A DNA stretch of 39,929 nt from a virus. The translations under genes and the position numbers were made by a program. The stretch lies in IMG/VR virus record IMGVR_UViG_3300045974_000989, positions 1-39,929 of that record. One strand, 5' to 3'. This document shows positions 4,638 through 29,089 of this stretch, piece by piece; positions within the stretch are counted from its first letter, which is position 1; every line of letters begins with the position of its first letter. Under the pieces are notes generated by a model. That model was given only the letters and a program-made list of their open reading frames with translations, did not search any database and was not told where the DNA came from.

Positions 4638-4639
4638 AA

Positions 4640-7096: not shown

Positions 7097-7098
7097 TG

Positions 7099-9868: not shown

Positions 9869-9912
9869 ATCTTAGCGACCTGTGAGTAGGCCGTCATTTG
9901 ACACGCGTCAAA
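9869..9912 (-). promoter_or_regulatory. Late promoter 3 (palindrome plus -10)
   Basis: Leftward promoter before W. The 16-bp palindrome TTTGACGCGTGTCAAA (9912-9897) is followed after 22 bp by TAAGAT (9874-9869). The same palindrome and the same 22-bp spacing occur before the other two late units. The predicted start of transcription is about 9862. The likely activator is the Mor-family protein encoded at 39273. Confidence 0.75.
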
Positions 9913-9914
9913 AA

Positions 9915-10487
9915 CTACGCGCCGCCATCGCCGTCCGCATCGGTAATGCGCCCAGCCGAAACGATGTCCGAATCGAATGTGCTTTTGCCCGCAACGTGGA
10001 GCATATCTTTGATCTGCACTTTGCCGTTGAGCACAATGGCCCCGTTGATCGTCACCGTCTTGCCAGACAAATCCAGACTGCCACCAGCGGAGACTGATGC
10101 ATTGCCAGTGGCAGCGATCACCACATCACCCAGCACTGTTGCTGTGAGTTTGTGGGCCGTGCGATCATACTGCAAAATCGTTCCATCGGCGAATTGCGTC
10201 ATAAACAAATTTGCATCGTTGGTGGGTGGCAAATCGCCGTCGCTGTAGATCGCCCCCAACACAACGCCCGCTACGCCATCATCATCGAGCAGTATAGCCA
10301 CGTGCTCCCCAATGTCCGGCATCCAGAAACATTTGTCCTGATGGGTTTTAGGCACCAGGACAGACAAAAACATCGTGCGAACATTGTTGTACAACGGCAA
10401 TCGCACCCGCACGCGGGGCAGCTTGCCAGCCCCGACCTGCACGTCGCTGACGGTACCGAACTGCAACCCGCTCATGAAATCAGCCAT
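9915..10487 (-). CDS. V: Baseplate assembly protein V (spike)
   Basis: Protein of 190 residues in the P2 gpV/Mu gp45 central spike family. It has an OB-fold N-terminal half (VRVRLPLYNNVRTMFLSVLVP, EHVAILLDDDGVAGVVLGAIYSD) and a C-terminal stretch of repeating short beta strands (from about residue 125) that forms the trimeric spike. It pierces the outer membrane. The start overlaps the end of D. Confidence 0.92.
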   Translation of the reverse strand: MADFMSGLQFGTVSDVQVGAGKLPRVRVRLPLYNNVRTMFLSVLVPKTHQDKCFWMPDIGEHVAILLDDDGVAGVVLGAIYSDGDLPPTNDANLFMTQFADGTILQYDRTAHKLTATVLGDVVIAATGNASVSAGGSLDLSGKTVTINGAIVLNGKVQIKDMLHVAGKSTFDSDIVSAGRITDADGDGGA

Positions 10488-11502
10488 CTTTTCTCACCCT
10501 TTTGATTTCGGCGCTGGTGCTATAGCCGCTTGATCGCTGTATCGTATGACTGGCTCGGTCAATCAAGTACGTCCCGTCCAGTTTGCCAAAACCCGCCAGC
10601 GCCAGCGTCAAGCCCGCGATAATCCTTTGATCCCCCGCCAGGCTGATCGAGGCGGTCAACTTGTCTTCCTTCGCTGCCGCGAGCGCCGCCTTACTGCGCC
10701 GATCCGCCATACCGTTGGTGCCCAATCGGCCCGTCAGGCGCAGCGTGTCACCACTGCTGTGCTCACCCGGTTCGTCGCTGCCATCGTCCGCAATTTCGGT
10801 TTGGGCCAGCGCTTTTTTATCGTGGTCATAGCGCCGCATCGATACCGCCCTCGGCACGTCCTTGATCTGATCACAAAACTCATAGCTCGACAATTGTTCT
10901 GGTGTCAGTACCAGACTGGCCTTTTGCTCGCGTAGCGCTTGCCGATCAGAAAACACGATCCGGCCCGCCACGATCTTGAACACATAGCCGTATTCCCCCG
11001 CCAGCCGGGTCAAAAACGCCACGTCCCGCTCCATGTATTGGGTCACACGGTCGATTTTGATGGGGGCGATCTTGCCCACCACCTTTAAATGGTTTTTCTT
11101 GGCGATCCGCGCCACAATCGCCGCCAGCGTCGTGTTTTCATATGCTTTGGCTTCACGGGTTCGCACCGGCTTTCTCACTCCCGCCGATAGTGCCCGGATC
11201 ATCACCACCGATGGCGGGGCAGAAAAGCGGATTTGATCCACCTCGAAGCTACCACAGTCCAGCAGCGGCAAACCGCGTCGCCCCAGCTTGCCGCGCAGCA
11301 GATCACCCTTGGCCGGATACCATTCACGCTGCCAACGACCGTCCACATTATCGAGTTCCACCTCAAACTCCTCGGCTTCGCCTGCAATATTGTCCCGGTA
11401 CGATAACCGCGTCACAAACCGCGCCAGCGATGCCGTCACGTCTTTGCCACGCATCATCAGCTCATAATCAAAGCCGAGTTCAGTCTCGATCAGGCTAGCC
11501 AT
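10480..11502 (-). CDS. D: Tail protein D (baseplate hub)
   Basis: Protein of 340 residues in the P2 late control D/Mu gp44 hub family: LSYRDNIAGEAEEFEVELDN, ENTTLAAIVARIAKKNHL, the central FLTRLAGEYGYVFKI, and a C-terminal TYLIDRASHTI. It forms the hub between tube and spike. The order D-V agrees with the physical contact of the proteins. It overlaps the X gene by about 13 bp. Confidence 0.92.
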   Translation of the reverse strand: MASLIETELGFDYELMMRGKDVTASLARFVTRLSYRDNIAGEAEEFEVELDNVDGRWQREWYPAKGDLLRGKLGRRGLPLLDCGSFEVDQIRFSAPPSVVMIRALSAGVRKPVRTREAKAYENTTLAAIVARIAKKNHLKVVGKIAPIKIDRVTQYMERDVAFLTRLAGEYGYVFKIVAGRIVFSDRQALREQKASLVLTPEQLSSYEFCDQIKDVPRAVSMRRYDHDKKALAQTEIADDGSDEPGEHSSGDTLRLTGRLGTNGMADRRSKAALAAAKEDKLTASISLAGDQRIIAGLTLALAGFGKLDGTYLIDRASHTIQRSSGYSTSAEIKRVRKDG

Positions 11503-11708
11503 GGCGGCACCTCCAGCGTCACGGCATCGATGCGTTCAATGATTGGTATCATCAGCACCAATCCGACAGGCAGCACGGCGGTCATCGGTATCGATTCGTT
11601 GGCGTTGGCAATCACCTGGAACAACGCCGCATCGCCATAATATTTCGCGGCGATGCTGTCCCAACGCTCACCTTCAACCGTCGTATGCATCAAATACTGT
11701 GTCGTCAT
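11490..11708 (-). CDS. X: Tail protein X (LysM-like)
   Basis: P2 gpX-type protein of 72 residues with a LysM-like core (GERWDSIAAKYYGDAALFQVIANAN) ending in IIERIDAVTLEVPPWLA. In contractile tails such proteins sit near the hub. ATGATGA at the U-X junction couples translation; the second ATG (11708) has the better spacing to GGAGGG. Confidence 0.9.
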   Translation of the reverse strand: MTTQYLMHTTVEGERWDSIAAKYYGDAALFQVIANANESIPMTAVLPVGLVLMIPIIERIDAVTLEVPPWLA

Positions 11709-12616
11709 CATAGCCCTCCCGTGCGCAAGGCACCCTGCAACAACCACGCAGACAGCGGCTTTTGCAACGTCTGCGCGGTATCCAGCGCGCCCAACACCGC
11801 GCTGGCCGCGCCCGTCAATGGTGCCACGCTGTTGCCATCACGCGCTTGTTGCAGGTTGCGCCGGGCATCCTTGATCTGTCCGGCCATCAACACCGCCGCA
11901 GGCAGCATCCGCGCCGCACTGGTGACATTCGGCCCCAGTGCGGTCAAGGTTTGCGCCAGCGCATTGGAGGCGGGCAATGCCTGTCCCATCAACTGCATCA
12001 AGCCGGGCAACTGCCCCAATGCCGCTACCGGGTTGCGCTGTAATGTTTGCGCCAGCAACAAGCCCGCTTTCGCGGTTTGTAGCGCATTTTTTGCGGTCGC
12101 TGCAAAGCCCAGCGCCTGGTTGGCCAGCACCGCTGGCGCTTGGCTCGGTTTGATCACAATCCGCTGCCGCGCCCTGAGAACGGTTTCCAGCGGCACACGG
12201 GTGCGCAGCACAGCGGGTGCGGGTGGCAGTTCGCCGGGTTCGCCCGCATATTCAAGCAGGGTCACTTTGGCGCTGTTGGCGATCAGGCCGTTGTCGTGGG
12301 TCGCCGCACGCGGTGCATCTTCCACCTCGGTAATCACAAAATAGCCCTTGTGTTCGCCATTGGCAAACACCATCGGCAGCGGGCGCTTGGCGCTCTGCGC
12401 TGCCAGCAACGCACGCAGCCCCGCTGCCGGGTCGGAAAAATACGCATGCCAGGCCAATTCAACGCTCACTTGCATCAAACTTTCCGCCACCGGCTCCAGC
12501 CGTGGCTTGCCGCTGATGCGCGCATGCTGTGCCCACTCGACCGCATAGCGGATCGTGTGGGATGTCCAGCTCAATACGTCAAACTCCAGCGTTCCCAGTG
12601 TACAAAACGTCGCCAT
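11708..12616 (-). CDS. U: Tail protein U (extended form)
   Basis: About 302 residues. The N-terminal 130 residues carry the GpU pattern (FCTLGTLEFDVLSW, RYAVEWAQHARISGKPRLE, HKGYFVITEVED). The C-terminal 170 residues are rich in Ala, Leu and Gln and mostly helical, absent from P2 gpU and similar in length to forms in other Mu-like phages. It probably caps or completes the tail. ATGATGG at the tape measure stop gives coupled translation; GGAGGGGC is the ribosome site. Confidence 0.85.
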   Translation of the reverse strand: MATFCTLGTLEFDVLSWTSHTIRYAVEWAQHARISGKPRLEPVAESLMQVSVELAWHAYFSDPAAGLRALLAAQSAKRPLPMVFANGEHKGYFVITEVEDAPRAATHDNGLIANSAKVTLLEYAGEPGELPPAPAVLRTRVPLETVLRARQRIVIKPSQAPAVLANQALGFAATAKNALQTAKAGLLLAQTLQRNPVAALGQLPGLMQLMGQALPASNALAQTLTALGPNVTSAARMLPAAVLMAGQIKDARRNLQQARDGNSVAPLTGAASAVLGALDTAQTLQKPLSAWLLQGALRTGGL

Positions 12617-15600
12617 CATGCCCCTCCCAGACTGCGCCGATTGGCGTCGCGCATCATGCGCTGATAATGTTGCTCGAAGTTGCGGAAGAACGATTCCTTG
12701 TCGTCGGCCAGCAGCGCCCGTATTTGATTCGGGTCGGCGCTGCCGTTGATCTTGATGATCGGCGCATAATGGATCTCGATTTTGGTCGTGTGGCCAGCCC
12801 CCGGCAACGCTGCCATCCCGGCAGTATCTGTGACCCACGCTGGCAATGCCCGCACCGCTTGCGTCGGTGGCTTGGCCAGCATCAGCCCCGCCAGTCTGTC
12901 CGACTGCTTGCGCACCAGGTGCGAGCGCTGCTCGATGCCAATCGCTGCACCCTCGGCCACGTTGTGCCCGACTTCCATCATTTTGCGGCTTGGGCTCTTG
13001 ATGCCCAACACGTTTTTGATCGATGTCAGCGCGCTTGACCCCATATTGCTGACCGTCGTCTTGACTTGATCCCAGCGCTGCGTGATGCCGCCGATAAAGC
13101 CGCCAACCAGATCACTGCCAGCCTGCACAAAGCCGCGCACATAGCGCTTTGTGCTGTCCCACGCCCAGCCCACAGCGCCCACCACCACCGCCCAACCTTT
13201 TTTGATCTTTGGGCCTATCGTGTCCCAGTTTTTCCACAGGTAATACCCGCCATAGGCCAGCGCGGCCACCGCCGCAATCGTCCAGCCGATTGGCCCCATC
13301 GCCATTAACAGCGCCCGCCCAAAGTGCAAGACCATTGGCGCAGCGGCACGCAGCACCGTCCCGATCCGGGCCATGCCTGGTACGCGACCCAGCAGCCCAG
13401 CGGCCCGGCCAGCCACTGATCCAAGCCCACTGCCAATAAACCGCGTCGCGCCCCGCCACGCCAGGCGCGAGCTGCGGCGCAGCCCGGCACCGAGCCGCGC
13501 CAACCGCCCGCGCCGCAGGCGCACATCCGGCCCGTTGCCGTCACCCATGTTGACCACGTACACCTGCTGCACATCGCGTCCGGTTTTCTTGCCCCGCAAG
13601 AAGCCCCACAGCCGCATGCCGCCACCAGCGATGCCCATCACGCCACCAGCCAGAAATTTCATCGCCATAAACCCAACGGATAACACAGCCAGCCCCGCAA
13701 CCACAGCAACCCCGGTTTTCACCAGTTTTTGATTGTTGTCGATCATCGAAGACAGCCCGCCGATGTATTCATTTGCTGTCGCCACAAAACCACGCCCACT
13801 ACCAGTCTTGCCATCGCCATCTTTGTGCATGACAGCCCGGCCCAGCCCCAGCACCAGATCGTGCACGGCAATGCCAAAACTTTTCGCCTGTTCCTTGGCT
13901 GTTTCCTTGCGCTCTGCGGCGTCGCGCATGATACTGCCCCTGGCCTCGGCACTGCCCGAGCCCTTTTTGATATCCTCAAACTGCGCCCGGTTTTGCCGGA
14001 ATGCCAGATAGGCGTTGACTGACTGCATATTCTGGAATACTTTTGACAGCGCAAATTGCTCCACCACCGAGCGCACCGCATCCTCGTTGCCGGTTTCCTT
14101 TGCTTGCTTTAATGCCGCCCTAAAATCCAGCCTGTCCTTGACCCCATGCTTGTTGCGCACTTCAATCACCTTGCCGCTGGCCACCTTGTCGATGTACTTG
14201 TCCGTGACATCAATCGATGCCATAAACGCCGACATCTTGCCACTGGCCACCCGTTGCGTGATTTCCTTTTTATAATCGATACCCACGTCATGAAACGTTT
14301 TGACTGTATGCGCCGCTGTCATATGGCTCATCCAGTCCTTGACGTTGGTTGCCGCCTCTTCGGTTGTGCCCGACGAGCCCCGCGCTACTTGCATTGCCGC
14401 ACCCAATTCGCGCACGGCATCCATCCCGGTCACGCCAAACGATTTCATTCGTGCGCCCAGCTCCGGAAAGTAGCGCGCCATGTGGCGCAATTCAAACTGG
14501 CCTTGCTTGCCGGCATAATTGAGCGCATCAATGGCTTCCTGCATTTGCTTGACGCCCTTGATCCCCATCGAATGATCCAATGAGAATGTCAAATTCGCCA
14601 TGTCCTTCATTTGCGCTCGCGATGCGGTTGCCGAATGACCCAACACTGGCACGTACTTTTGTGCGTCCGCCGCAGTCATGCCGTTGGCAACCAACACACT
14701 TAAGCCACCCGCCAAATCCGCATGTTTTTGATTTGTATCCTTGGCTGCACGCCGAACCATCTGCCCCAACGCGTTTTCATCCTTACGCTTCATGCCACCC
14801 GTTATGGCCACGTCCCGCATCGCATCTTCATGTTCGATCCACGGGTTCGCCATGCGCACTGCCCCATACACGCCAGCGGTGGCACCGATCACCGCACCAT
14901 AGCCACTGGCACGCAAATCCCGGCCCCGCTCTTGCAGATCGCGCCCGGTCACGCCCATTTGCAGCGAGCGCTGGTGGTTGGCCAGCAGTGCATCGGCATT
15001 GGCTGGCCCGTTGGGATTGAGCCGCAACTGCTGCGCACGCTCATTGGCCCGGCGCAGCGCCGCTTCGGTGCGCTCGACTTCCCGGCGCAGCTCACTGCCC
15101 TGCCGGGTAGCATCGGTCAACCGGTTGCGGAACTGGTCGGCAACCCGCTCGGCACGGGTCAGCGATTCCTTGATCTTATCGACCTCGGCCCGCCCGGCCC
15201 CGGCAGTGCGCTCGACCTGCGCCAGCTTTTGCTTGAGCTGCTCAACCTGCGCCACGCTGGCGGCCAGGTTGGCTTTGGCCTTGTCCACATGCTGCTGGAA
15301 TTGCGTGCTCAGCGTATTCGCACGCGCCAGCGCCGCGTCCAGTTTGGTGATTTCGGCGGTGCTGCGTGCCGCTGCCTGTTCGGCCTGGCTTAGCGACTGG
15401 CGCAGGTGCTGCGCCCGCGCTGCGTTGTTGATCTGCTCGGTAATGGCGTTCGCCCGCGCCAGCGCTGCCGTCAACTTGTCGATTTCGGCGGTGGTGGCCG
15501 TGCCACTGGCCTTCGCGGAATAGATTTTTGCCGCCAGGCGCGCTGCCAAATCCTCGCTCGCAGCCAGCCGCTGATCCACATTGACCAGGCTGGTAGCAAA

Positions 15601-16134
15601 CTTGGTGCTCGCCTGCCCGGTGGCCTGCAATTCAGTTTTCAGGCGGGCGATTTCGGCCACCGTTGCCGCGCCGGTGCTGCGCGCTGCCGTCAGCTTGGCC
15701 GACAGCGATGCCGCCAGATTGGCACTATTGCCCAACTTTTGCTCCGCCTGCACCAGCGCCGACTGAAACGCCGCACTGGTCTGCGTTGCCTGCTGCAAAC
15801 TCGCCTGTGCGCGCTGCAATTGCACCGTCATGCCGCGCCCGGCATCCTCGGCCCGGCGCAAGCGCTGGCCAAAGGTCAGTGCCAGTTGGCTGCTGCGCTC
15901 AACATTGCGCCGGATGCCGCCCAAGCCCGCCTCAAATGCCGCCGCACGCGCCTGCGCTGCCGTCAGCTCGGTACGCATCTGGCGCAGGTTGTCCAGTGCC
16001 ACCCGCTGCACGCCTACCTGCGTCATGCTGGTACGCAAGCGCTCCGAAGCTGACCTCGCGTGATTAATAAAATTGACGACATTACCCGCCGCCGAAATCA
16101 CCAGCCCAACACTAAACACCCGGTTTGTCATCAT
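12616..16134 (-). CDS. T: Tape measure protein
   Basis: At 1172 residues this is the longest gene, as expected for the protein that sets tail length. The N-terminal 400 residues are near-continuous coiled coil (Ala, Gln, Glu, Arg rich). A conserved tape-measure core follows from about residue 410 (GYGAVIGATAGVYGAVRMANPW). Two hydrophobic segments lie downstream (VAVVAGLAVLSVGFMAMKFL and GPIGWTIAAVAALAYGGYY) that may form the membrane channel for DNA. Its start follows an intrinsic terminator by about 15 bp, so expression relative to upstream genes may be reduced. Confidence 0.95.
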   Translation of the reverse strand: MMTNRVFSVGLVISAAGNVVNFINHARSASERLRTSMTQVGVQRVALDNLRQMRTELTAAQARAAAFEAGLGGIRRNVERSSQLALTFGQRLRRAEDAGRGMTVQLQRAQASLQQATQTSAAFQSALVQAEQKLGNSANLAASLSAKLTAARSTGAATVAEIARLKTELQATGQASTKFATSLVNVDQRLAASEDLAARLAAKIYSAKASGTATTAEIDKLTAALARANAITEQINNAARAQHLRQSLSQAEQAAARSTAEITKLDAALARANTLSTQFQQHVDKAKANLAASVAQVEQLKQKLAQVERTAGAGRAEVDKIKESLTRAERVADQFRNRLTDATRQGSELRREVERTEAALRRANERAQQLRLNPNGPANADALLANHQRSLQMGVTGRDLQERGRDLRASGYGAVIGATAGVYGAVRMANPWIEHEDAMRDVAITGGMKRKDENALGQMVRRAAKDTNQKHADLAGGLSVLVANGMTAADAQKYVPVLGHSATASRAQMKDMANLTFSLDHSMGIKGVKQMQEAIDALNYAGKQGQFELRHMARYFPELGARMKSFGVTGMDAVRELGAAMQVARGSSGTTEEAATNVKDWMSHMTAAHTVKTFHDVGIDYKKEITQRVASGKMSAFMASIDVTDKYIDKVASGKVIEVRNKHGVKDRLDFRAALKQAKETGNEDAVRSVVEQFALSKVFQNMQSVNAYLAFRQNRAQFEDIKKGSGSAEARGSIMRDAAERKETAKEQAKSFGIAVHDLVLGLGRAVMHKDGDGKTGSGRGFVATANEYIGGLSSMIDNNQKLVKTGVAVVAGLAVLSVGFMAMKFLAGGVMGIAGGGMRLWGFLRGKKTGRDVQQVYVVNMGDGNGPDVRLRRGRLARLGAGLRRSSRLAWRGATRFIGSGLGSVAGRAAGLLGRVPGMARIGTVLRAAAPMVLHFGRALLMAMGPIGWTIAAVAALAYGGYYLWKNWDTIGPKIKKGWAVVVGAVGWAWDSTKRYVRGFVQAGSDLVGGFIGGITQRWDQVKTTVSNMGSSALTSIKNVLGIKSPSRKMMEVGHNVAEGAAIGIEQRSHLVRKQSDRLAGLMLAKPPTQAVRALPAWVTDTAGMAALPGAGHTTKIEIHYAPIIKINGSADPNQIRALLADDKESFFRNFEQHYQRMMRDANRRSLGGA

Positions 16135-16144
16135 CGCCACCAAT

Positions 16145-16178
16145 TAAAAGGGCGGGTACACCGCCGTGCATCCCGCCC
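16145..16178 (-). terminator. Hairpin with T-tract before tape measure gene
   Basis: A 7-bp perfect GC stem (GGGCGGG at 16150-16156 with CCCGCCC at 16172-16178) is followed leftward by TTTTAATT. The form is that of a moderate intrinsic terminator on the late strand, between the tail chaperone and tape measure genes. As there is no new promoter visible, it probably attenuates rather than stops transcription. Confidence 0.6.
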
Positions 16179-16185
16179 AAGTCTA

Positions 16186-16359
16186 TCAATTTGCATTGCG
16201 CTGCTGCGCCGCCACGATCTCTTCCGCCGCCTCGCAGTATTCCCAATATTCGCTAAGGGTGAGCAGGAACAGGCAGGCCAAACTCAAGCCCCGGTGTATC
16301 CGCAGCAGGCCCCGATCCATTTCCCGCATCTGCGATTCCGGTATCAACGATGCGGCGAA
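16186..16359 (-). CDS. Frameshift extension of tail chaperone (gp42/E'-like)
   Basis: From the T6 run leftward, a second frame encodes about 57 residues ending LSEYWEYCEAAEEIVAAQQR plus three more. It has no ribosome site of its own. It is reached by a -2 shift (or +1) at TTT TTT, giving a 233-residue fusion. Mu-like phages are known for an unusual -2 shift at this gene pair. The reading frame and the size of the extension fit that pattern. Confidence 0.65.
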   Translation of the reverse strand, partial: FAASLIPESQMREMDRGLLRIHRGLSLACLFLLTLSEYWEYCEAAEEIVAAQQRNAN

Positions 16360-16885
16360 AAAAGCGGCACAGGGCATACGAGTCTGCCAGCGCCAGGTTC
16401 GCCACGTCTTCCAACTGCAAACTGGCCATCGCGCCAATCAAAACGCCATCGCGCTCGGTCGCCAGCGCCGCCACTTGCGCCGCCCGGCGCTGGTCGCCCC
16501 GCGTCAATTCGCGCAGCAGCAGCGTGTTCACCGTGCCCATTGGCGTCAACAACGGGCGGGTCAGGGTGTATTGATAACCTGGCGCAATCACGGCGTCGAG
16601 CGGCGCAGGGTTGTTCAACCCACACAAGCTGTTCAGCTCGATCAACAAATTTTCAGAGTCGGTCAGCGACAGCATGCCAATGACATCGAGCGGCAAGGCA
16701 GTCATCTGGTGCAGCAAAAAGTCATCCTGATCATCGATATCATTGGGCGCATGCTTTTCTGCCAGCACGCGGTCTTGATGAAACATTTCAAAGATCGGCA
16801 CATCGCGCACCCGCGTTTCCACGGTGCCCGATTTGACGACCAGCTTGCCCAGCAGCGGCACCCGCTTGATTTCAATCCTGCTCAT
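16253..16885 (-). CDS. Tail assembly chaperone (gp41/gpE-like)
   Basis: Protein of 210 residues located between tail tube and tape measure, where long-tailed phages encode the chaperone pair that coats the tape measure. An AAAGGAA site precedes the ATG at 16885. The residues up to about 176 look folded; two segments have similar form (residues 30-80 and 110-170), which suggests an internal duplication. The last 34 residues are Gly/Pro-rich and low in helix, as expected for a frame not normally read. A T6 run at codons 175-176 allows a shift into a second frame encoding the longer form. Confidence 0.8.
   Translation of the reverse strand: MSRIEIKRVPLLGKLVVKSGTVETRVRDVPIFEMFHQDRVLAEKHAPNDIDDQDDFLLHQMTALPLDVIGMLSLTDSENLLIELNSLCGLNNPAPLDAVIAPGYQYTLTRPLLTPMGTVNTLLLRELTRGDQRRAAQVAALATERDGVLIGAMASLQLEDVANLALADSYALCRFFRRIVDTGIADAGNGSGPAADTPGLEFGLPVPAHP
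16358..16363 (-). other. Slippery T6 run for programmed frameshift
   Basis: In the zero frame the mRNA reads CGC UUU UUU CGC. Moving back two bases re-pairs Phe tRNA on UUU/UUC and enters the extension frame. No other homopolymer of this length occurs in the overlap of the two frames. Confidence 0.6.
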
Positions 16886-16913
16886 TGCTTTTTCCTTTAA
16901 AAGATTGACCCAA

Positions 16914-17444
16914 TTACAGGCCCAAGTTGGCCCGGTATTGAATCAGCATGTCTTCCCCACCCACCTTGAAGATGTTGTTCAGCACGTCGATTTCAATCAT
17001 TTCCACGCCATCCAATACCTGTTTGAATTTCAACACTGACGCGGTCGCACTGAATTCCGCACGACCTTGTGCTTTGTAAGTGGTGCCGGTGGGGACTTTC
17101 TTAAAAATCACCTCCATGAACGTGAGCAAGCCTTTTTGCGATACCCGGCCACTACCGCCCTCCCAGCCTTCGAGGTTGGCTCGGAACTGCAACTGTTGAG
17201 TGGTAAATAGATTGCCGACTTGCTTCATCAAGTCTGCCGAATACGACTTGAACTTAAGTTCCGTCTCCATTTTTTCAAACCCGACTGGCAGCTCGAACGA
17301 ACTCATTAATCCCAGGCCTGTGTACTCGGCTACCTTTGCCACCACATCGGGGCTCTTTGCTTCTTCGACCAAGCCAAGCAAGCTGCTGCCATTGATGTAG
17401 CAATTGGCGTTGGTAATCTGCGAGATTTGAATATTCCCAGCCAT
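16914..17444 (-). CDS. FII: Major tail tube protein (FII type)
   Basis: P2 FII-type tube subunit of 176 residues with ITNANCYINGSSLLGLVEEA at the start, SSFELPVGFEKMETELKFKSY and a central EVIFKKVPTGTTYKAQGRAEF. It polymerises into the inner tube. The ATG has an AAGGAG site. The gene follows the sheath by 9 bp, the normal contractile-tail order. Confidence 0.93.
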   Translation of the reverse strand: MAGNIQISQITNANCYINGSSLLGLVEEAKSPDVVAKVAEYTGLGLMSSFELPVGFEKMETELKFKSYSADLMKQVGNLFTTQQLQFRANLEGWEGGSGRVSQKGLLTFMEVIFKKVPTGTTYKAQGRAEFSATASVLKFKQVLDGVEMIEIDVLNNIFKVGGEDMLIQYRANLGL

Positions 17445-17453
17445 GATGGCTCC

Positions 17454-18662: not shown

Positions 18663-18664
18663 AA

Positions 18665-18907: not shown

Positions 18908-18918
18908 TCCAGACTCCC

Positions 18919-19790: not shown

Positions 19791-19792
19791 GA

Positions 19793-20803: not shown

Positions 20804-20843
20804 TGTATTTCTCGCTTTTCTCAGTCAGATTTCAGTCAACCGC

Positions 20844-21206
20844 TTACTGCGGGTCTTGCATCACAATAAACAGCGCTTCCAATTGCGCCACCGCAATCGC
20901 CTTTTGTGCGTCCGTGATCCCCGCAGGCCACACCAGCCCCTCCGGCATCAGTTGCGCCAGCTTGACAGCCGCCAAGCCGCTTTTGTTGGCCGCGCTGGCG
21001 TCCACATTGACCAGGCAAATGCCCGCCGCCTTGGCGCTGTCATCATTGGCCGCTGGCACCAGCGGCACATAATTGCCATTCAGCTTCGCCACCACCTGGC
21101 CCATCACAAATACGCCACCGGCAAACGTCACCGTCCTATTGGTAAAACCTTCAAATTCCCGTATCAATACATCCGATAGCTGCTTGGGCCGAAAAAAATT
21201 TGCCAT
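20844..21206 (-). CDS. Head decoration protein (lambda gpD-like)
   Basis: Protein of 120 residues of the lambda gpD family, with TFAGGVFVMGQVVAKLN and the DDSAKAAGICLVNVDASAANK segment typical of these trimers. It stabilises the expanded capsid. An AAGGA site precedes the ATG. It sits between scaffold and major capsid genes. Confidence 0.88.
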   Translation of the reverse strand: MANFFRPKQLSDVLIREFEGFTNRTVTFAGGVFVMGQVVAKLNGNYVPLVPAANDDSAKAAGICLVNVDASAANKSGLAAVKLAQLMPEGLVWPAGITDAQKAIAVAQLEALFIVMQDPQ

Positions 21207-21241
21207 GATTGCTCATCCTTGTTTGATTAAAATTGTTCGGG

Positions 21242-21685
21242 TTACGGCTTGACTGCCCGACGTTCAGCATCCGCGATCAGGGCACTTTTATCTGTCCCTG
21301 CGCCCGCATTGCCAACCTTGGTCTTGGTTGCCTGCTCGCTAAACAGAAAATCCGGCATCGGCTTGATCGCTTCCAAGGCCGCTTTCTGCGCCGCAAAGCG
21401 GGATGGTGCCACCACGCCTTCCGCAAAGTTGCCCACTTGCGCCGCCAGCCAATCACCGTCCTTGGCCGGGTCTTGCGCCGCCATAAAATTCAAATTGGCC
21501 AACGTCAGCGCAACTTGGCTGGGCAGCAATTTGCGCTGCTGTACCAGCCCCTCGCAAAACGCCAGATTGTCCGCTTCGGCGCTGGCCTTGTCCTTGGCCT
21601 TGGCTTCACGCTCCAGTACACCGTTACGCGCTTTCAGCGCTGCGGCTTCCGCTTTGGCCGTAGCCAGTTCTTGTTCGATGCTCAT
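21242..21685 (-). CDS. Z: Scaffold protein Z (internal in-frame start)
   Basis: Within the protease gene an ATG (MSIEQELATAKAEAAALKAR) has its own AAGGA site 10 bp upstream. It begins a highly helical 147-residue protein. Mu makes its scaffold Z from the same kind of nested start in gene I. The scaffold fills the prohead and is removed by the protease. Confidence 0.8.
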   Translation of the reverse strand: MSIEQELATAKAEAAALKARNGVLEREAKAKDKASAEADNLAFCEGLVQQRKLLPSQVALTLANLNFMAAQDPAKDGDWLAAQVGNFAEGVVAPSRFAAQKAALEAIKPMPDFLFSEQATKTKVGNAGAGTDKSALIADAERRAVKP

Positions 21686-22387
21686 GTTTTCGGGTTCCTT
21701 AAACGAGGGGTTTTTGTTTCTGTCTTGATCTGCCGCATCCGCGTCGCGCAGCGCCGCTGCGGCATCTTTAACTGCCGTGATCTTCCAGTCCGGTAATAGG
21801 TTGTCGGCCGCATCCAAGCCCTCTTTTTCGTTGATGTGATCACGCAGCCTGCGGAGCATGTCCGCCACCGCGTCCAATGGGTACGCAACCATCCAGCCCG
21901 ACAACTCGGCAAACTCCATCGCTGCCTCTGCCGTGTCACCTTCGGCAAACTGCTGCAAGCCTTGCATGCCCTTGATCGCTGGCGGATCGTCACCACACAG
22001 GCCCACATGCCGTATGTTCAGCTTGCCTGGCGTCGGGTTGTGCGGGTTTTTCCGGGCGTAAATGCTGCACGACACCCCCAGCCATTGATAGCCATCGATC
22101 TGGCGTGCAACCTCTTCCTCCATCAGGAAATCGCCAAACAGCTTGTCGCCCACCTTGGTCACACTGTCCAGCCCGCCATAAGCAGGCGCAGCACCTTTCG
22201 GGTGGCCAGCGACCAACGGTGCAAAGTGGGTGGTGCGTTGATACGATGTCGCCATTTCCGTCAAATCAGCATCGGTAAAGTCCGCCGTAATACCATTGGC
22301 ATCCGTATGCTTGCCAGTGCGGAAAATTTGCAGCGTGCGCTTGACGGGCATCACTGCGGGCGGTTGGGGGTTGGTTTGTGTAGTCAT
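21242..22387 (-). CDS. I: Prohead protease I
   Basis: Mu gpI-type protein of 381 residues. The N-terminal half is the protease (LQIFRTGKHTDANG, FAPLVAGHPKGAAP, VSCSIYARKNPHN). The C-terminal 147 residues are the scaffold domain, also made alone from an internal start at 21685. Its ATG lies at the predicted start of transcription of late promoter 2, so the mRNA may be leaderless; no good ribosome site is visible. Confidence 0.9.
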   Translation of the reverse strand: MTTQTNPQPPAVMPVKRTLQIFRTGKHTDANGITADFTDADLTEMATSYQRTTHFAPLVAGHPKGAAPAYGGLDSVTKVGDKLFGDFLMEEEVARQIDGYQWLGVSCSIYARKNPHNPTPGKLNIRHVGLCGDDPPAIKGMQGLQQFAEGDTAEAAMEFAELSGWMVAYPLDAVADMLRRLRDHINEKEGLDAADNLLPDWKITAVKDAAAALRDADAADQDRNKNPSFKEPENMSIEQELATAKAEAAALKARNGVLEREAKAKDKASAEADNLAFCEGLVQQRKLLPSQVALTLANLNFMAAQDPAKDGDWLAAQVGNFAEGVVAPSRFAAQKAALEAIKPMPDFLFSEQATKTKVGNAGAGTDKSALIADAERRAVKP

Positions 22388-22393
22388 GCAGCC

Positions 22394-22437
22394 AGTATGC
22401 CGGGCCGCTTTGTTGGCGTCATTTGACGTGCGTCAAA
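22394..22437 (-). promoter_or_regulatory. Late promoter 2 (palindrome plus -10)
   Basis: TTTGACGCACGTCAAA (22437-22422) followed after 22 bp by CATACT (22399-22394), in the gap before gene I. Architecture is the same as at 9869 and 29046. The expected transcription start falls on or next to the ATG of gene I. Confidence 0.75.
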
Positions 22438-22582: not shown

Positions 22583-22607
22583 AAAAAAAACGCCCGTAGC
22601 GCGTTTT
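22583..22607 (-). terminator. Intrinsic terminator after gene G
   Basis: Leftward: AAAACGC, 7-nt loop, GCGTTTT, then further T (eight T in all, 22590-22583). It lies 17 bp after the gpG stop and closes the first late unit. The next late promoter begins about 150 bp further on. The gap 22388-22623 holds no other gene. Confidence 0.8.
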
Positions 22608-22623
22608 GCGCCAATCACCGCAA

Positions 22624-23103
22624 TCAGCGGATAACGAACCCCAGCCACACATACGTCACCTGCAACAGCCCGTGTTCGGCCTGCGGGCTGATGCGCCCGT
22701 CCTTGTCCATCGGCAGGTAAGGCCGTGCCGGTATCGTCGTCGCCAGGTAGCGGCCAGCCTTGCCGCCAAATTGTTGGATCGCGGCGTACTGGTGCGAATA
22801 CCCGGCCACGCCCACCGCCGCATAGTTGGGGCCACTGTCCGTGATCACTGCCCGCGCCAGCGCACCGGTCACTTGCAGAATCGGCCCCGGCCAGCGGCCT
22901 TTCTTCTCGCGCTGCGCAATCGTGCGCTTGGACAGCGCTGGCCATTTCGGCTGTCCCTGCGCCCGAAAATTCGCCTCGGTCTGGCTCAGTAGTTCCACCG
23001 CCAGCTTGGGCGTCAGGCTGGCCAGGTTGCCCGCCCGTGCGATCACATCCAGCGTCGCATCGAGCGGCCCGGTGTTCAGGCGCAGTTCAAACGGATCAGT
23101 CAT
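22624..23103 (-). CDS. G: Virion morphogenesis protein G
   Basis: Mu gpG/P2 gpS-type tail completion protein of 159 residues: LSQTEANFRAQGQPKWPALS and RTIAQREKKGRWPGPILQVTG, with the YSHQYAAIQQFGG signature. The start at 23103 overlaps the preceding stop (ATGA). It completes the tail terminus and joins head to tail. Confidence 0.9.
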   Translation of the reverse strand: MTDPFELRLNTGPLDATLDVIARAGNLASLTPKLAVELLSQTEANFRAQGQPKWPALSKRTIAQREKKGRWPGPILQVTGALARAVITDSGPNYAAVGVAGYSHQYAAIQQFGGKAGRYLATTIPARPYLPMDKDGRISPQAEHGLLQVTYVWLGFVIR

Positions 23104-23969
23104 GGCGTTGGCAACATCTGCTTGGCCAGATCGGCCACTGGCCCGCGCCAGCGATTGGTTTCCGGTTGCCACGCTTCGCGGCCAGGGTTAAACGCAAAAC
23201 CCGGTGCGGTCTTCACCGCCACTTTTTTGCCATCGATCACCGTGGTAAACGTCGCCTGCTTGGCCACCCGCGCCGGATCGCCGCCCACCGACACCTCATC
23301 AACCTTGATCGGCTCAGCAAGCGAGGAGCGCAAATCCATCTTCTCGCGCTCAAACATGTCGGTGGAGACGGGCGACACCCGGCAACGACACAGCCAGGCC
23401 CATGGCGGATAGTAATAAGACCAAAATGGATCATCAAAGCGATACACACGCCCATCCAGCGCCGCATGCGTGGCGCGTGTGCGCCGATCACGAATCGCCG
23501 TGTAGCGCCAATAGGGGTGCGTGTCCGTCGCGCCCATCATGGCTTTATAACGCCCGGCCATGAATGCCGATTGCATATTGGTCTGGTAAATCGTCCACAA
23601 ACGGCTGGCGCTGCCAAGCTGTGCCGGTGCCGGTGCCGTGGTGCCGCTGTGCGCGGGAATGATTTCGCCCGTATCCGGGTCAATCGCCTTGCCCCACCAG
23701 CCCTTGCTTTGCAATATGGGTGTCAGCTCGGCCTTGAATTGCGCAAAGGTTTGACCGTCGTTGACCGCATGCAGCAACGCGTCGTAAATCGATTGCAGCA
23801 CGTCCAGCTTGGTCACTTTCGCCACAGTAAACACATGCGCGTGCCGTTCGTCCACCACGTCCTGCCATTGCCACGACAGCACAAACCCTTTGCGCTCAAA
23901 GTAGCCCACCACGTCTTGCGGTGCCATGCCGAGCACAGCGCGCACGTCGGCATTGGTCAGCTTAGGCAT
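23100..23969 (-). CDS. F: Head morphogenesis protein F (Mu gp30-like)
   Basis: Protein of 289 residues in the Mu F-like minor head family: DVLQSIYDALLHAVNDGQTFAQF, then the conserved TIYQTNMQSAFMAGRY and YTAIRDRRTRATHAALDG with downstream PPWAWLCRCRVSPV. It is an injected or portal-associated head protein. The start at 23969 overlaps the portal stop. Confidence 0.92.
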   Translation of the reverse strand: MPKLTNADVRAVLGMAPQDVVGYFERKGFVLSWQWQDVVDERHAHVFTVAKVTKLDVLQSIYDALLHAVNDGQTFAQFKAELTPILQSKGWWGKAIDPDTGEIIPAHSGTTAPAPAQLGSASRLWTIYQTNMQSAFMAGRYKAMMGATDTHPYWRYTAIRDRRTRATHAALDGRVYRFDDPFWSYYYPPWAWLCRCRVSPVSTDMFEREKMDLRSSLAEPIKVDEVSVGGDPARVAKQATFTTVIDGKKVAVKTAPGFAFNPGREAWQPETNRWRGPVADLAKQMLPTP

Positions 23970-25482
23970 CGAGCAATTCCTCGGCAATCATCAACCGCCC
24001 AATCGTATCGAGCGCGAATTCGAGGTTGGTCAGCGTCTTGCGCAGGGTGGCATCATTCATCGTCGGGTACAGCTTGGCCAGTTCCGCCTGCACTGTATCA
24101 AAGTCGGCCTGTTGGCGGATTGCGGCAATCAATGGCTCGATCATTTGTCGTGTGATGGCGGGCAGTATTTTATCGATGTACGCGTCCATGATGCCTTCCA
24201 CGTCCAGCTCGTCGCCACCCTCGTTAAAATCCGCGTGCGGCGCACCAGGCTTGGCTGGCGCTGCCACCATCGCCGCTTCGTCCAGATCGCCATCCTGAAA
24301 CTTGTACGCCCGTTTGAAATAGCCCGGCGTCAACTTGGCCCCAGCGGCAACCAATTGGTTGTCGCGCTTGGCCCGCGTGTCATCAATTTTTTCCCGCTCC
24401 ATCAATCGATACTTCGGCGTGTCCTGCGGCCCGATCCCGTAGTTCAGCTCGCAGTACACGTCGATGGCTTGTTGGATCGTTGCCGCCACGATCCCGGCAT
24501 CGCTGTCGCGGATATCATCGGTCACCCCGGTGCCCGCCGTGGCGCTGGCGTGGGTGACATTGGCGTCGGTGGTCGAGTTCGTGCCGACCAGCGCCACGTT
24601 GATTTCCATGCGGCAGTAGGCCAAAAAATTGTCGTGCAGACTATCGCTGCCGCCGCCTTTGCGCTCCAGCACCGTCACCGAGCCGTCATCCGGGATCACG
24701 CCGACCGCATCTTCGATCATCGCATCAAGCTGATCGGCCAGCTCGTCATACTCCGAATCCTTGGCCGACCGTGGCAGCTTGCCGATCAAAAACGGCATGC
24801 CGAATTTTTCCACGAACTTGGTGTACCAGCGCAAGCCCCCTTCCATAAACGCGACCGACCACAAAATCAAGGACAAATCAGCTTCGCCGTAGGGGTTTTC
24901 GTAGGTCGCGTCCTGCCTTGCCAACAGATATTTTTCGCGTGGGCAGGCTTCGCCATTGAGGGTGCCTTGCACCTTAAGCCGCAATTGATTGCTGCCGTCA
25001 AACTGAAACCACTCTGGCGGCTTGGCATCGATGCGTGTCAGGTTGTATTGGCGGGCCTCGATAGCCCACATCATTTCCAAAGGCTGATAGCCAAACAGCA
25101 CGGCGCGGTGCGTTTGCCGCAATGCCGCCTCCAGATCCAGACTACCCCAAACCCGGTTGACCGATTCCAGCACATCGCCGCGCCCGCCATAGTTGGCCAC
25201 GTCCAGCCCCCGATCCAGCGCCATCACTGCCGCCCGCCGCCTGCGCACCAGGCCCGCCACAATCGGATTCTTGAGCAGCTTTTTGTACACATCGATACTA
25301 CGCCCCATCTTGCGCAGCACAATATCCGGGTTCGGCAGCAAAAAATTGCCAAAGTTGCCGCCCATGCGGCTGCGGGTCGCCAGTGCGCCAGCGTCGCCGC
25401 TGTCGGCCCCGCTCGCATTGGTGCCGGAAAACGGCAAAAAGCCGCCATTTGGCAACAGTAGTCCGTCCGTTTTCTTCTTCAT
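23962..25482 (-). CDS. Portal protein (DUF935, Mu gp29-like)
   Basis: Protein of 506 residues. LRKMGRSIDVYKKLLKNPIV, VRRRRAAVM and the central EFGMP-type motif (VEKFGMPFLIGKLPR) identify the Mu-like DUF935 portal, which forms the dodecameric DNA channel. The start overlaps the terminase stop by ATGA, in the order of BcepMu and Mu. Confidence 0.93.
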   Translation of the reverse strand: MKKKTDGLLLPNGGFLPFSGTNASGADSGDAGALATRSRMGGNFGNFLLPNPDIVLRKMGRSIDVYKKLLKNPIVAGLVRRRRAAVMALDRGLDVANYGGRGDVLESVNRVWGSLDLEAALRQTHRAVLFGYQPLEMMWAIEARQYNLTRIDAKPPEWFQFDGSNQLRLKVQGTLNGEACPREKYLLARQDATYENPYGEADLSLILWSVAFMEGGLRWYTKFVEKFGMPFLIGKLPRSAKDSEYDELADQLDAMIEDAVGVIPDDGSVTVLERKGGGSDSLHDNFLAYCRMEINVALVGTNSTTDANVTHASATAGTGVTDDIRDSDAGIVAATIQQAIDVYCELNYGIGPQDTPKYRLMEREKIDDTRAKRDNQLVAAGAKLTPGYFKRAYKFQDGDLDEAAMVAAPAKPGAPHADFNEGGDELDVEGIMDAYIDKILPAITRQMIEPLIAAIRQQADFDTVQAELAKLYPTMNDATLRKTLTNLEFALDTIGRLMIAEELLDA

Positions 25483-27035
25483 TGTCCGTATCCCGCTGTA
25501 ATGTCATTGCGCCGTGGTGCCCGGTTATGGCATCTCCCAGTTCGCTTGCTGCCTGGGCGGCTCACTTTCACCGGCCCGCTGTTCAGTTCAAAGGTCGAAT
25601 AGATGGCCAGCGCCGCCGCGATGGCGACATCGCCATGCCGTTTTTGCCCCTTATCCGCTTCGCTCCTGGTACGTTCGCGCACCTGGGGCACGCCCCGAAC
25701 CATTTCAATCGTGCGCAAGTCCCCTTGCACATCGGCGTGTCTGGGCAGACCTTGCAGCGACTTGTCTTCAAACGCCGCCTTCAGCTTTGGCATGTGGTTG
25801 ATGTACCACTTTTGCGAAAACTGTATCTGCGCGATCCGCCCGGCACCATAGCGCATCATCGTATCTTCAGCCAGATTGCTGCCGTTGCCGCCCGCGTCCA
25901 TTGCACCGCCCATCAAGTTGGGCAAGCGATCCAGGATGTACCACAGGATTTGGCGCTGCGCGTTAAACGGCAGATTGCTCATCTCCAACACAAACGGCAC
26001 CCGGTTGACCAATCCCTCGTCTTGCAGCAGCGGCAGAAACACACTCAAATCAATGTAGCGCGCAATGTCGTTGCCGAAAAAAGAGCGGGCCGTTTTTGGC
26101 AGCGCCGCCAGCAGCGGCCCGAGTTCGGTCTCGCAAAATTCGGCAATGTCCGCCTCGATCTGCGAGATGGGCAATAGCTCAAAGTCCGGGGCGCGCTTGA
26201 TCCGAATAATCGGCGTTGCATCAGACATGCACGACTGGATCAGCGCCACGCTCAGATACTTGCCACCACCGGCACTCGGCACGCAGTCCAGTTCCTCGGC
26301 TGCGTCGTCGCCGTAAAAGTTGCGGATTTCGGCGATTTTTGCTTTCTCAACTTCCGGCGAATAATGCTCCCCCAGCACCAGACAAATGCGCTCGATCAGC
26401 CCATCGGCACAGGCATCCTCAAACGTAATCCGGTGTACCGAGTAGCCGAGCTTGCCTTCGCGGCAGGCTGTCAGCACATGGTTGAAATGGTTTTCTGTAC
26501 CGTTGTGGGTGCTGATGATGTGGACATGCCCGCCCCACATCGTCACCGCCATTGCTGCCTTCAGCAATTCCGGCAGGTCGGGGTGGAATGCGGCCTCATC
26601 CAACACCAGCCGCCCGCGCTTGCCGCGCAGGTTCGCCGGTGCCGACGATAACGCAGTGATCTTGTAGCCAGAGGCAAACGTGATCGACCACGTTTTAACG
26701 CTCTTCTTCTCGCCGCCTTCTTCCCAGACTTCTTCGCCTTCGTCGATCTGGCTAGCGGCCATACTGTAATAGCGCGCCCATCCGGCGCAATCACGAATAA
26801 ACTCTTTCGCCATGTCGTGGTTGTAGCCAACGTACCAGCAATCCATCCCATTTTCACGGGACGCAAGCAAGGCACAATCCGCCGCCTCGGCAAAAGAAAA
26901 GCCGCAGCGCCGGGTTTTTTCAACCAGTTTGACTTGGCTACCGTCTTCAATCCAACGCTTTTGATACCCCAACAGGACGCCAATCGCCTCTGTGATTCGA
27001 GTCGGCTTTAGCCTCTTATCAGCAAGTTGTGTCAT
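25479..27035 (-). CDS. Terminase large subunit (Mu gp28-like)
   Basis: Packaging motor of 518 residues. The ATPase part has a Walker A-like KTRRCGFSFA, Walker B RLVLDEAAF and the coupling STHNGTENHF. The nuclease part has FFGNDIARYIDLSVF and a distal HGDVAIAAALA. Mu-like terminases cut host DNA next to the integrated phage, so packaging is headful from the genome end. Confidence 0.93.
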   Translation of the reverse strand: MTQLADKRLKPTRITEAIGVLLGYQKRWIEDGSQVKLVEKTRRCGFSFAEAADCALLASRENGMDCWYVGYNHDMAKEFIRDCAGWARYYSMAASQIDEGEEVWEEGGEKKSVKTWSITFASGYKITALSSAPANLRGKRGRLVLDEAAFHPDLPELLKAAMAVTMWGGHVHIISTHNGTENHFNHVLTACREGKLGYSVHRITFEDACADGLIERICLVLGEHYSPEVEKAKIAEIRNFYGDDAAEELDCVPSAGGGKYLSVALIQSCMSDATPIIRIKRAPDFELLPISQIEADIAEFCETELGPLLAALPKTARSFFGNDIARYIDLSVFLPLLQDEGLVNRVPFVLEMSNLPFNAQRQILWYILDRLPNLMGGAMDAGGNGSNLAEDTMMRYGAGRIAQIQFSQKWYINHMPKLKAAFEDKSLQGLPRHADVQGDLRTIEMVRGVPQVRERTRSEADKGQKRHGDVAIAAALAIYSTFELNSGPVKVSRPGSKRTGRCHNRAPRRNDITAGYGQ

Positions 27036-27559
27036 CAGGTCGCAATACCCAAAATTTTCCGCTTGATTTCGTCGGCCATTTCGTCAGAAAGGCCACCAGC
27101 CTTTTTCAGCAGCTTGACTGTTTCATCCGCTGCCACCTTCGCCTTCGCACGAACCTCGCTCCTGTACTTGCCCAGATTGATGCTTGCGCCGGACAGCGAT
27201 GATATGGCGCGCACAAATTTTGGAAAATCAACTTCTTCCGGGTCAACATCTATCTGTTGCAGCAGCTCGAAGGAGCGATGCAGCGCCATCTGGTTGACCG
27301 CATTGGCCATGTCAGCCTGATCATCACCAAGTTGCTCGCTGATGGCTCGGGCCATGTCGCGGGAGGTTTGCAGCCGCTTGAGTCGCTCTTCAAACTCTTG
27401 CCCGAATCGATGCACCGACGAACGGCTGATTGAATACCCTCGCTCTTGCAGCGATGCGGTCAGTGCATCGTATTCACCGAACCGATTGTCAACCAGCGCG
27501 CCTTCAAGCCAGGTGCGCACTTCAGGTGGCAGCGCCTCAATCTTGGAGCGCGGCCCCAT
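27035..27559 (-). CDS. Terminase small subunit-like protein (DUF3486, Mu gp27)
   Basis: Protein of 174 residues with PRSKIEALPPEVRTWLEGAL and an N-terminal helix-turn-helix (ALTASLQERGYSISRSSVHR), then a coiled C-terminal half. This is the Mu gp27 family next to the large terminase and probably recognises DNA at the phage end. Confidence 0.9.
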   Translation of the reverse strand: MGPRSKIEALPPEVRTWLEGALVDNRFGEYDALTASLQERGYSISRSSVHRFGQEFEERLKRLQTSRDMARAISEQLGDDQADMANAVNQMALHRSFELLQQIDVDPEEVDFPKFVRAISSLSGASINLGKYRSEVRAKAKVAADETVKLLKKAGGLSDEMADEIKRKILGIAT

Positions 27560-28182
27560 CACACACCCGCATTACAGCCAGGCCGCAGCGTAATGCCCGC
27601 AAAGCACGCCACAGTCCCTTGCGACACATCGGTGCCTTCGCGTGTCATCTGGCACGCCCAGTCCTGATCCTGCTTATCAACGGGCAACGTGATCAATCCG
27701 CGCAAGCCCAGATAGTGCAATTCCAAGCGCAATTGATTTTGTGACACCGGAAAATCCGGCCCGCCAATGCAGGTCAGCAGCAGCGATTCGTGCATCGTAC
27801 CGCCACCACCAATGCCCATCACATGCAAAATCCGGCCCCGCAGCATCCCGGTCACAATCTGCTTGCGGTTCGGTTCCGCGTCGGCTGCTGGCCGTGCAAT
27901 ACCCGGCTCGCAGGGGATCGTATATTCAACCAGGTCAATGCCGATCCACGTCAGTGCGACCGTCCAATGGTCGGTGCTACGCGTCACCGCCACCAATTTG
28001 CGCTGTTCCAGGTACGCCAGTTCGGCACGCACTTCGGTGAGCGTTGCAATGATCTTTGCCTGCATCACGCCCACAATCAGCTCATCAAGCGCAGGGCTGA
28101 GCCGATCCTGATACAACGCGCCCAAAATGCGCCAGCGGATCAGGTTCCGCCGCGCTTGCTGAATTTGGATTTCAGGGTTCAT
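27559..28182 (-). CDS. Mu gp26-position protein with duplicated winged-helix domain
   Basis: Protein of 207 residues with two similar halves. Residues about 15-95 and 118-205 both begin with a helical pair, contain a RxELxYL-type recognition helix (VRAELAYLEQRKLV and LRLELHYLGLRGLI), and end with a GxD/GT-C-GI-RP segment (IPCEPGIARP and VACFAGITLRP). The pattern suggests tandem winged-helix domains that arose by duplication. It may bind DNA in packaging or regulate the late operon. An AAAGGAAC site precedes the ATG. Confidence 0.7.
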   Translation of the reverse strand: MNPEIQIQQARRNLIRWRILGALYQDRLSPALDELIVGVMQAKIIATLTEVRAELAYLEQRKLVAVTRSTDHWTVALTWIGIDLVEYTIPCEPGIARPAADAEPNRKQIVTGMLRGRILHVMGIGGGGTMHESLLLTCIGGPDFPVSQNQLRLELHYLGLRGLITLPVDKQDQDWACQMTREGTDVSQGTVACFAGITLRPGCNAGV

Positions 28183-28191
28183 AGTGTTCCT

Positions 28192-28479
28192 TTAAGTTGT
28201 CTTGTTACCCAGCGATTTCAGCATCACATCCAGCGATGTTTGTACCCTGTCAAGCGTGCGCTGTGTGCTGGCGGTTTCCCGTATCCATTCATCCCGCCGC
28301 AGCATTTCTGTCGCCTGCTTTTCGACCTTGCCACGCAGTTCGGTCTCCGCTTTTTCGATATGCGTAAACTTGTCCATGATCCGCTTTTCAAACAGATCGA
28401 TAACGAACTTCAGGATTGCGGCATAGGAGCCGACGACGGAGCCGAACAGGCAGATAAATTGCCAAACAGAGAGTTGCAT
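28192..28479 (-). CDS. Membrane-anchored coiled-coil protein (Mu gp25/DUF2730-like)
   Basis: Protein of 95 residues: an N-terminal membrane segment (FICLFGSVVGSYAAILKFVI) followed by a charged coiled coil. Mu-like phages carry a DUF2730-type gene here, between lysis and packaging genes. A holin-like role is possible but one membrane segment and a long coil do not make the case. The ATG follows AGGACTGATC within the end of Rz. Confidence 0.65.
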   Translation of the reverse strand: MQLSVWQFICLFGSVVGSYAAILKFVIDLFEKRIMDKFTHIEKAETELRGKVEKQATEMLRRDEWIRETASTQRTLDRVQTSLDVMLKSLGNKTT

Positions 28480-28481
28480 GA

Positions 28482-29003
28482 TCAGTCCTGCTTTTGATTT
28501 TGGGCGTTGCTGAACATGGCGCGGTCGGCCACCAGCACCGCCTGGCACGCCCGCAATTGAATGGCTACTTCGTCGGCGTCGGCCACGAGGCCGAGAAGAT
28601 CTTCAGCAGCCGATCCTGAAAGCTCGGCTGTGGTGGTGGCTTCATGATCGCCGCTGGCACTTCCGGCAGTTGAGGCAGTGGCGTCTCGAATACACGCACT
28701 GGTGGGGATGTGCAGCCGCAGATTGCCAGCCCGCAGGCCAGCAACAACAGCAGCGTGTTGATTTTTTTCATGGGTCAAGTCCAGCTCAAAAAGGTTGGAA
28801 ATCGCAGTAATGTTGTGCTGCGCCTCGTTTTCGACGGCGCGCACACGCTGATGTGCGGACACGACTGCGGCGCTCACTTGGCGCTCTGCTGCAATCGCAA
28901 CTGCATTTTGATGATGGCCCATGGCCGGGACGACGATGGCCAATGCCAACCCGGCCCCGGCTAATGCCGCGATCAGGTGCGTGGTAATTGGAGTTGTGAG
29001 CAT
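28482..29003 (-). CDS. Rz: Inner-membrane spanin (Rz-like)
   Basis: Protein of 173 residues with an N-terminal signal anchor (LIAALAGAGLALAIVVPAMG), a periplasmic coiled coil and a two-cysteine C-terminal region, the form of i-spanins. The Rz1 gene is embedded in it in another frame, which strongly supports the call. It would fuse inner and outer membranes in the last step of lysis. An AAGGA site lies before the ATG. It is the first gene of late unit 1. Confidence 0.88.
   Translation of the reverse strand: MLTTPITTHLIAALAGAGLALAIVVPAMGHHQNAVAIAAERQVSAAVVSAHQRVRAVENEAQHNITAISNLFELDLTHEKNQHAAVVAGLRAGNLRLHIPTSACIRDATASTAGSASGDHEATTTAELSGSAAEDLLGLVADADEVAIQLRACQAVLVADRAMFSNAQNQKQD
28565..28771 (-). 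CDS. Rz1: Outer-membrane spanin lipoprotein (Rz1-like), nested in Rz
   Basis: Protein of 68 residues with a lipoprotein signal (LLLLLACGLAICGC, lipobox ending at Cys19) and a proline-rich mature part (PLPQLPEVPAAIMKPPPQP), typical of o-spanins. It lies entirely inside the Rz gene in another frame. Confidence 0.88.
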   Translation of the reverse strand: MKKINTLLLLLACGLAICGCTSPPVRVFETPLPQLPEVPAAIMKPPPQPSFQDRLLKIFSASWPTPTK

Positions 29004-29045
29004 CGAGAGTCCTTTTCATGGGCACCATGCTTGGTGCAGGACTCC

Positions 29046-29089
29046 ATAATGCCAAAGGTCACGCGCTGTGTAATTTGACGCGTGTCAAA
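29046..29089 (-). promoter_or_regulatory. Late promoter 1 (palindrome plus -10)
   Basis: TTTGACACGCGTCAAA (29089-29074) followed after 22 bp by CATTAT (29051-29046), in the gap between the HNH gene and Rz. Same architecture as at 22394 and 9869. It begins the late arm and separates it from the repressor-linked genes. Confidence 0.78.

Follow-up and report, generated by a model that had tools for sequence, protein, structure and literature searches.

The three copies of a perfect palindrome, TTTGAC-N4-GTCAAA, in the late region of this Mu-like phage are very probably the operators of class II late promoters, which, judging from sequence comparison, would be activated in a single tier by one Mor-family protein, with no C gene. 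The window (the whole 39,929-base stretch analyzed here) is an IMG/VR virus record of a Mu-like phage carrying baseplate genes. Its early genes run rightward, from a repressor-like region through a transposase gene and a gene in the gemA position to mor, and its late genes, with lysis, packaging, head, tail, and baseplate functions, run leftward. The late region was annotated as follows.

29074..29089, minus strand: late operator 3, TTTGACACGCGTCAAA, exact match, upstream of the lysis/packaging block.
29046..29051, minus strand: predicted -10 CATTAT, 22 bp from operator 3; putative start near 29039.
22624..29003, minus strand: late block 3, Rz-like spanin, lipoprotein, terminase small and large subunits, portal, minor head protein, and neck protein (PHROG/Pfam).
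22422..22437, minus strand: late operator 2, TTTGACGCACGTCAAA, exact match, upstream of the head maturation protease gene.
22394..22399, minus strand: predicted -10 CATACT, 22 bp from operator 2; putative +1 at 22387.
9915..22387, minus strand: late block 2, protease, head decoration, major head protein, tail genes, tape measure region, and baseplate assembly protein (PHROG/Pfam; G001 orthologues).
9897..9912, minus strand: late operator 1, TTTGACGCGTGTCAAA, exact match, upstream of the gp25-like baseplate gene.
9869..9874, minus strand: predicted -10 TAAGAT, 22 bp from operator 1; putative start near 9862, with the ATG at 9848.
196..9848, minus strand: late block 1, gp25-like wedge protein, baseplate J, tail protein, and further leftward ORFs (PHROG/Pfam; identified genes lie right of 7764).

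The three exact copies compare with 0.003 expected under a first-order Markov model (Poisson P for at least three copies, ~5e-9). The next best site, at 2943, had two mismatches and was the sole other site in the window with two mismatches or fewer. All three copies were intergenic, in a window of which 4.6% is intergenic DNA, and were located before the lysis/packaging, protease, and gp25-like genes; a hexamer of the form NANNNT began exactly 22 bp past each of them on the minus strand (3/3). The first-pass annotation had described three copies with none elsewhere, each in a gap upstream of a leftward late block and each followed by a -10-like hexamer at a fixed 22 bp, and the search of the window bore out this description in full. 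Downstream of operator 3, the Rz ATG at 29003 followed a leader containing AAGGA.

The likeness of the three copies extended just beyond the palindrome (TTTTGAC....GTCAAATKAC), and the conserved element, which is longer than the palindrome, spanned approximately -50 to -31, entering the -35 region from upstream. The operator is a 16-bp dyad whose center falls at approximately -42.5 if +1 is 7 nt after the -10. The -35 position read ATGACG or ATTACA, with two or three mismatches to TTGACA, and the TGAC/TTAC at this position was conserved in relatives whose operators contain a C before the A-run (C-type operators). The composite element also matched the opposite strand with one or two mismatches; because the palindrome is symmetric, the promoter strand is set by the -10 and the genes alone.

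The candidate activator is encoded at the end of the early operon, in the order listed here.

38665..39273, plus strand: gene in the gemA position (phrog_286), directly before mor and named gemA by position.
39273..39629, plus strand: Mor-family activator gene (PF08765, E = 1.4e-19, 70.5 bits, cutoff 24.9); recognition helix SARHIYRIL from residue 95.

A profile of relatives of the predicted Mor protein matched the Mu Mor structure (1rr7; E = 1e-13) and Mu C. The AlphaFold2 model (pLDDT, 86.5; pTM, 0.51) contained helices at residues 7-29, 34-52, 65-79, 84-91, and 95-113, and the six best PDB matches in a fold search were Mu C and Mor chains, with modest E values (0.003 to 0.06) and probabilities of 0.99 to 1.00. 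The model had the PF08765 layout found in 1rr7, with a predicted two-helix dimerization part and a C-terminal helix-turn-helix. As modeled, the window Mor has the fold of Mu Mor and C.

One PF08765 match was found in the window, a linear and possibly incomplete contig ending approximately 300 bp after mor. A single Mor/C gene was also found in 32 of 34 records related by portal (the two shortest yielded no match), in 29 of 30 records related by Mor (the exception being a 48.8-kb record with two), and in each of five named phages, for a total of 66 of the 67 related phage records with a match. As a positive control, the identical search recovered both Mor and C from Mu. These counts support two proposals of the first-pass annotation, that the Mor-family protein is the only candidate activator and that the late switch takes one step and lacks a C gene. 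A two-tier circuit, in which Mor would act on a middle promoter and a diverged, unrecognized C would bind the three palindromes, exists in Mu, and the proximity of the contig end to mor is compatible with it. It is nonetheless very unlikely here: the second Mor/C paralogue that distinguishes Mu was found neither in the window nor in those 66 records, and in phiSHP3, JBD25, and Fc02, where mor is at the genome end, no middle block follows it.

The one related record with two Mor-family genes (G107, locus L443) carries them 27 kb apart and may hold two prophages or represent a two-activator phage. A 96-amino-acid ORF follows mor in the window (positions 39639 to 39929) and ends at the contig end, unlike in phiSHP3, JBD25, and Fc02, in which mor is the last annotated gene before the genome end. 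gemA was also present throughout the related phages, and its product may be a cofactor.

The longer motif matched 25 stretches in IMG/VR; one of them (L128, in the 30.8-kb record G001) was a true relative and the closest found, with 71% identity in TerL, 54% in portal, and 37% in Mor. G001 carried TTTGACGCGCGTCAAA, an exact copy of the motif, before its protease gene (L147:7686), orthologous to operator 2, and TTTGACGCGCATCAAA, with one mismatch, before Rz (L147:14360), orthologous to operator 3; both copies were 22 bp from CATCAT. The G001 contig covers two of the three orthologous gaps, the third lying beyond the contig end, and the element, with its 22-bp spacing, was conserved at both of those covered. 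No relatives were found by a single-sequence Mor query among viral contigs or by megablast against phages, and a plain short-motif scan yielded scattered single matches among the matches listed. Two TerL relatives were without the motif; the Mor of one (G026) was distant, and the fragment of the other (G027) contained no Mor gene.

Three phage-like fragments of 7 to 11 kb with baseplate genes (L152, L153, and L154 in records G002 to G004, metagenome 3300036779) together contained TTTGACACGTGTCAAA 16 times, once as TTTGACATGTGTCAAA. Many of these copies were 0 to 8 nt before an ATG, with no -10 at 22 bp, and none of the fragments carried a Mor gene. Here the same palindrome stands in another arrangement, probably that of a different system.

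More distant Mu-like phages carried other dyads at the same gaps, before lysis, protease, and tail/baseplate genes. AFS-2018a contained TTTAAAGCGCTTTAAA and variants of it at several gaps, Komp_PAO1_1 contained four TTTAAACCCGATTAAA-type sites, and PhiKM, phiSHP3, and JBD25 each had dyads of their own; at the operator 1 gap, Komp_PAO1_1, PhiKM, and AFS-2018a each had their own dyad. The dyads found in relatives included TTTAAA-N4-TTTAAA, TTTGCC..TTCAAA, TTTTGC..GCAAAA, and TTGGGA..TCCCAA. Portal alignment gathered 160 loci, and Mor alignment gathered 65. A dyad 16-mer with NANNNT at 22 bp was present in 36 of 65 nonredundant protease upstream regions, compared to 0 to 6 at each of the other spacings between 12 and 35 bp and an average of approximately 1 in shuffles. 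In a noncircular test, 102 further operator copies were chosen by operator sequence alone, with the -10 disregarded. NANNNT was found at 22 bp in 76 of these and at other spacings in 0 to 11, and approximately one-quarter of the copies were without it at 22 bp. For the protease sites of JBD25, L419, and L444, 23 bp fit better than 22. The fixed spacing claimed for the window holds across a large family. Dyads of the form GTGAC-N4-GTCAC, off the 22-bp rule, occurred before the protease genes of L218 and L224, which may represent another branch of the system; L218 is linked to a divergent Mor-like protein (helix SRSYLFRLL).

These family-wide patterns bear on two other explanations of the palindromes. 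Palindromes commonly bind repressors, and a gyrase site is annotated in Mu in the corresponding gap before the protease gene, so the copies could in principle be repressor or structural sites (for late-gene silencing, gyrase, or the nucleoid) that lie near promoters by chance. That explanation is extremely unlikely given the placement of a -10 exactly 22 bp from the dyad across dozens of phages, the weak -10s and class II position, which fit activation, and the finding, in an exact search of the window, of no copy at the repressor gene or early promoter. A host regulator of the CRP/FNR family (FNR, ANR, DNR, or NnrR type) could instead bind the palindrome at the class II position and couple late transcription to oxygen or nitric oxide, a reading suggested by the likeness of TTGAC-N4-GTCAA to TTGAT-N4-ATCAA, the FNR-type site, and by the comparable spacing to the -10 in class II FNR promoters. 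Binding by such a regulator is highly unlikely, since the operator was not kept as an FNR-type site in relatives: their dyads occupied the same gaps at the same 22-bp spacing and were of the TTTAAA, TTTGCC, TTTTGC, and TTGGGA types, and these non-FNR-like dyads sorted with the type of Mor.

The association between operator and Mor was examined in the 68 phages that had a linked Mor and whose protease operator could be classified, and operator type agreed with the type of the Mor recognition helix in all 68. Helix position 4 was W or F wherever the operator was of the TTTAAA type (40/40), and C-type operators occurred with other residues, mostly R-G at positions 3 and 4 (26/26); the two Mor proteins with an SVNA helix were both found with TTTTGC..GCAAAA. 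On a Mor tree built without the helix-turn-helix columns, the main operator split was one event, so this agreement is largely shared descent. The portal tree contained two supported changes of operator type, and Mor type changed alongside both times. The structural genes of the window, G001, L170, L207, L183, and L389 were nested among those of TTTAAA phages, yet these phages had C-type Mor and operators. Because operator and Mor type change together on the portal tree, the operators follow Mor and not the genes that they would control. The evidence this gives for Mor as the putative reader of the operators is modest but pointed.

A recognition code at helix position 3 (Gln to A and Arg to G) was considered and is not claimed. 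R3 occurred with a C:G pair in most C-type operators, and the exceptions were A3 and P3 with TTTAAA types and H3, S3, and V3 with C types; these residue exceptions, together with the single change on the Mor tree, are the reason.

The available part of an RNA-seq report on the B3-like phage Fc02 describes transcription of the mor operon first and of three late clusters afterward (PMC9936078), an order that agrees with the late switch proposed for the window. The same part of the report gives no exact start for late clusters two and three and does not describe the dyad/-10 element (PMC9936078). In the Fc02 sequence, the operator 7-mer TTCCAAA had exactly three forward-strand copies, before the holin, protease, and tape measure genes, with NANNNT at 22, 23, and 22 bp, respectively.

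Under the one-tier reading, Mor, whose gene closes the early operon, would bind each 16-bp dyad as a dimer (center, approximately -42.5), beside and partly over a degenerate -35 (ATGAC/ATTAC). Mor would then recruit sigma-70 RNA polymerase to the weak -10 exactly 22 bp downstream, and the lysis/packaging, capsid, and baseplate blocks would be started at the putative start sites. The circuit would be a one-tier early-to-late switch, with Mor doing the job done in Mu by Mor and then C. The geometry, which is like that of Mu Pm within one base, led to the conclusion that Mor probably binds the three operators and activates the late blocks directly.

Six nucleotides separated the -10 from the protease ATG in the window (positions 22385 to 22399), which would place +1 on the A of the ATG; a leaderless protease mRNA is therefore predicted. 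The corresponding gap was 6 or 7 nt in 17 of 23 nonredundant C-type phages and in 8 of 26 of the TTTAAA type, and the capsid protease mRNA is predicted from sequence to be leaderless in many of these phages. A more general statement, made with moderate confidence, is that most Mu-like phages would have a one-tier late switch in which one Mor acts on phage-specific dyads 22 bp from the -10, that Mor and its operators would codiverge as an insulated pair moving as a unit between structural backbones, and that the protease mRNA would be leaderless in many of them.

To our knowledge, late gene control in transposable phages is known in detail for Mu alone. If the general statement is true, the two-step relay of Mu would be the exception, and the rule (a 16-bp dyad, 22 bp, and NANNNT) would make it possible to predict, from sequence, where late promoters lie in B3-, BcepMu-, and FluMu-like phages. 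The phages would also provide a natural set of activator-operator pairs for reading DNA recognition by Mor, aided by the structures 9l0y (Mor) and 9l0x (C), each with RNA polymerase, and the pairs would, if the statement is true, be usable as orthogonal promoter switches that need one protein each. Searches of the open-access literature, a scope outside which the original BcepMu, B3, and D3112 genome papers fall, turned up no account of the one-tier circuit, the operator set, the 22-bp rule across phages, or the predicted leaderless protease mRNA, and an earlier description of these promoters may exist.

In Mu, a Mor dimer binds a 16-bp element with 5-bp inverted repeats, centered at -43.5 and replacing the -35 (PMC4390567), and works with sigma-70 RNA polymerase (PMC4390567 and PMC4287176). 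The window resembles Mu Mor at Pm (1rr7 and 9l0y) in protein family, fold, and gemA-mor order, and its promoters likewise have a recognizable -10 and a 16-bp dyad near -43 that replaces or overlaps the -35, presumably with sigma-70 polymerase as in Mu (PMC4390567 and PMC4287176); the geometries are equal within one base, that of Mu being taken from the literature, as Pm was not placed with confidence in the Mu sequence. The window differs in having the dyad at three late promoters, versus one middle promoter in Mu, and in its operator (TTTGAC-N4-GTCAAA), the residual ATGAC at -35, and the lack of a detected C gene. The earlier claim that the operator is different from those of Mu Mor and C accordingly stands for its sequence but not for its geometry, which equals that of Mor at Mu Pm.

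The C-dependent late promoters of Mu are lys, I, P, and mom (PMC4461284), and gene I is the protease gene in the Mu annotation. The window resembles the Mu C system (9l0x) in having a putative Mor/C-family dimer, a dyad beside the -35, and predicted late promoters before lysis and protease genes (PMC4461284 and PMC4287176). It differs in that the candidate activator is the gemA-linked Mor itself, the window operators are near-identical to each other, and no mom promoter was found. The third site also differs, lying at the gp25-like gene, which is presumably not exactly the position of the Mu P promoter. Fc02 and JBD25 differ from the window in their operator (TTTNGC..TTCCAAA) and in a third site at the tape measure gene rather than at gp25, and share with it an early operon that ends in mor, a late region in three clusters, and the dyad-22(23)-(-10) element. 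The activator family, the fold, and the promoter geometry are already known from Mu.
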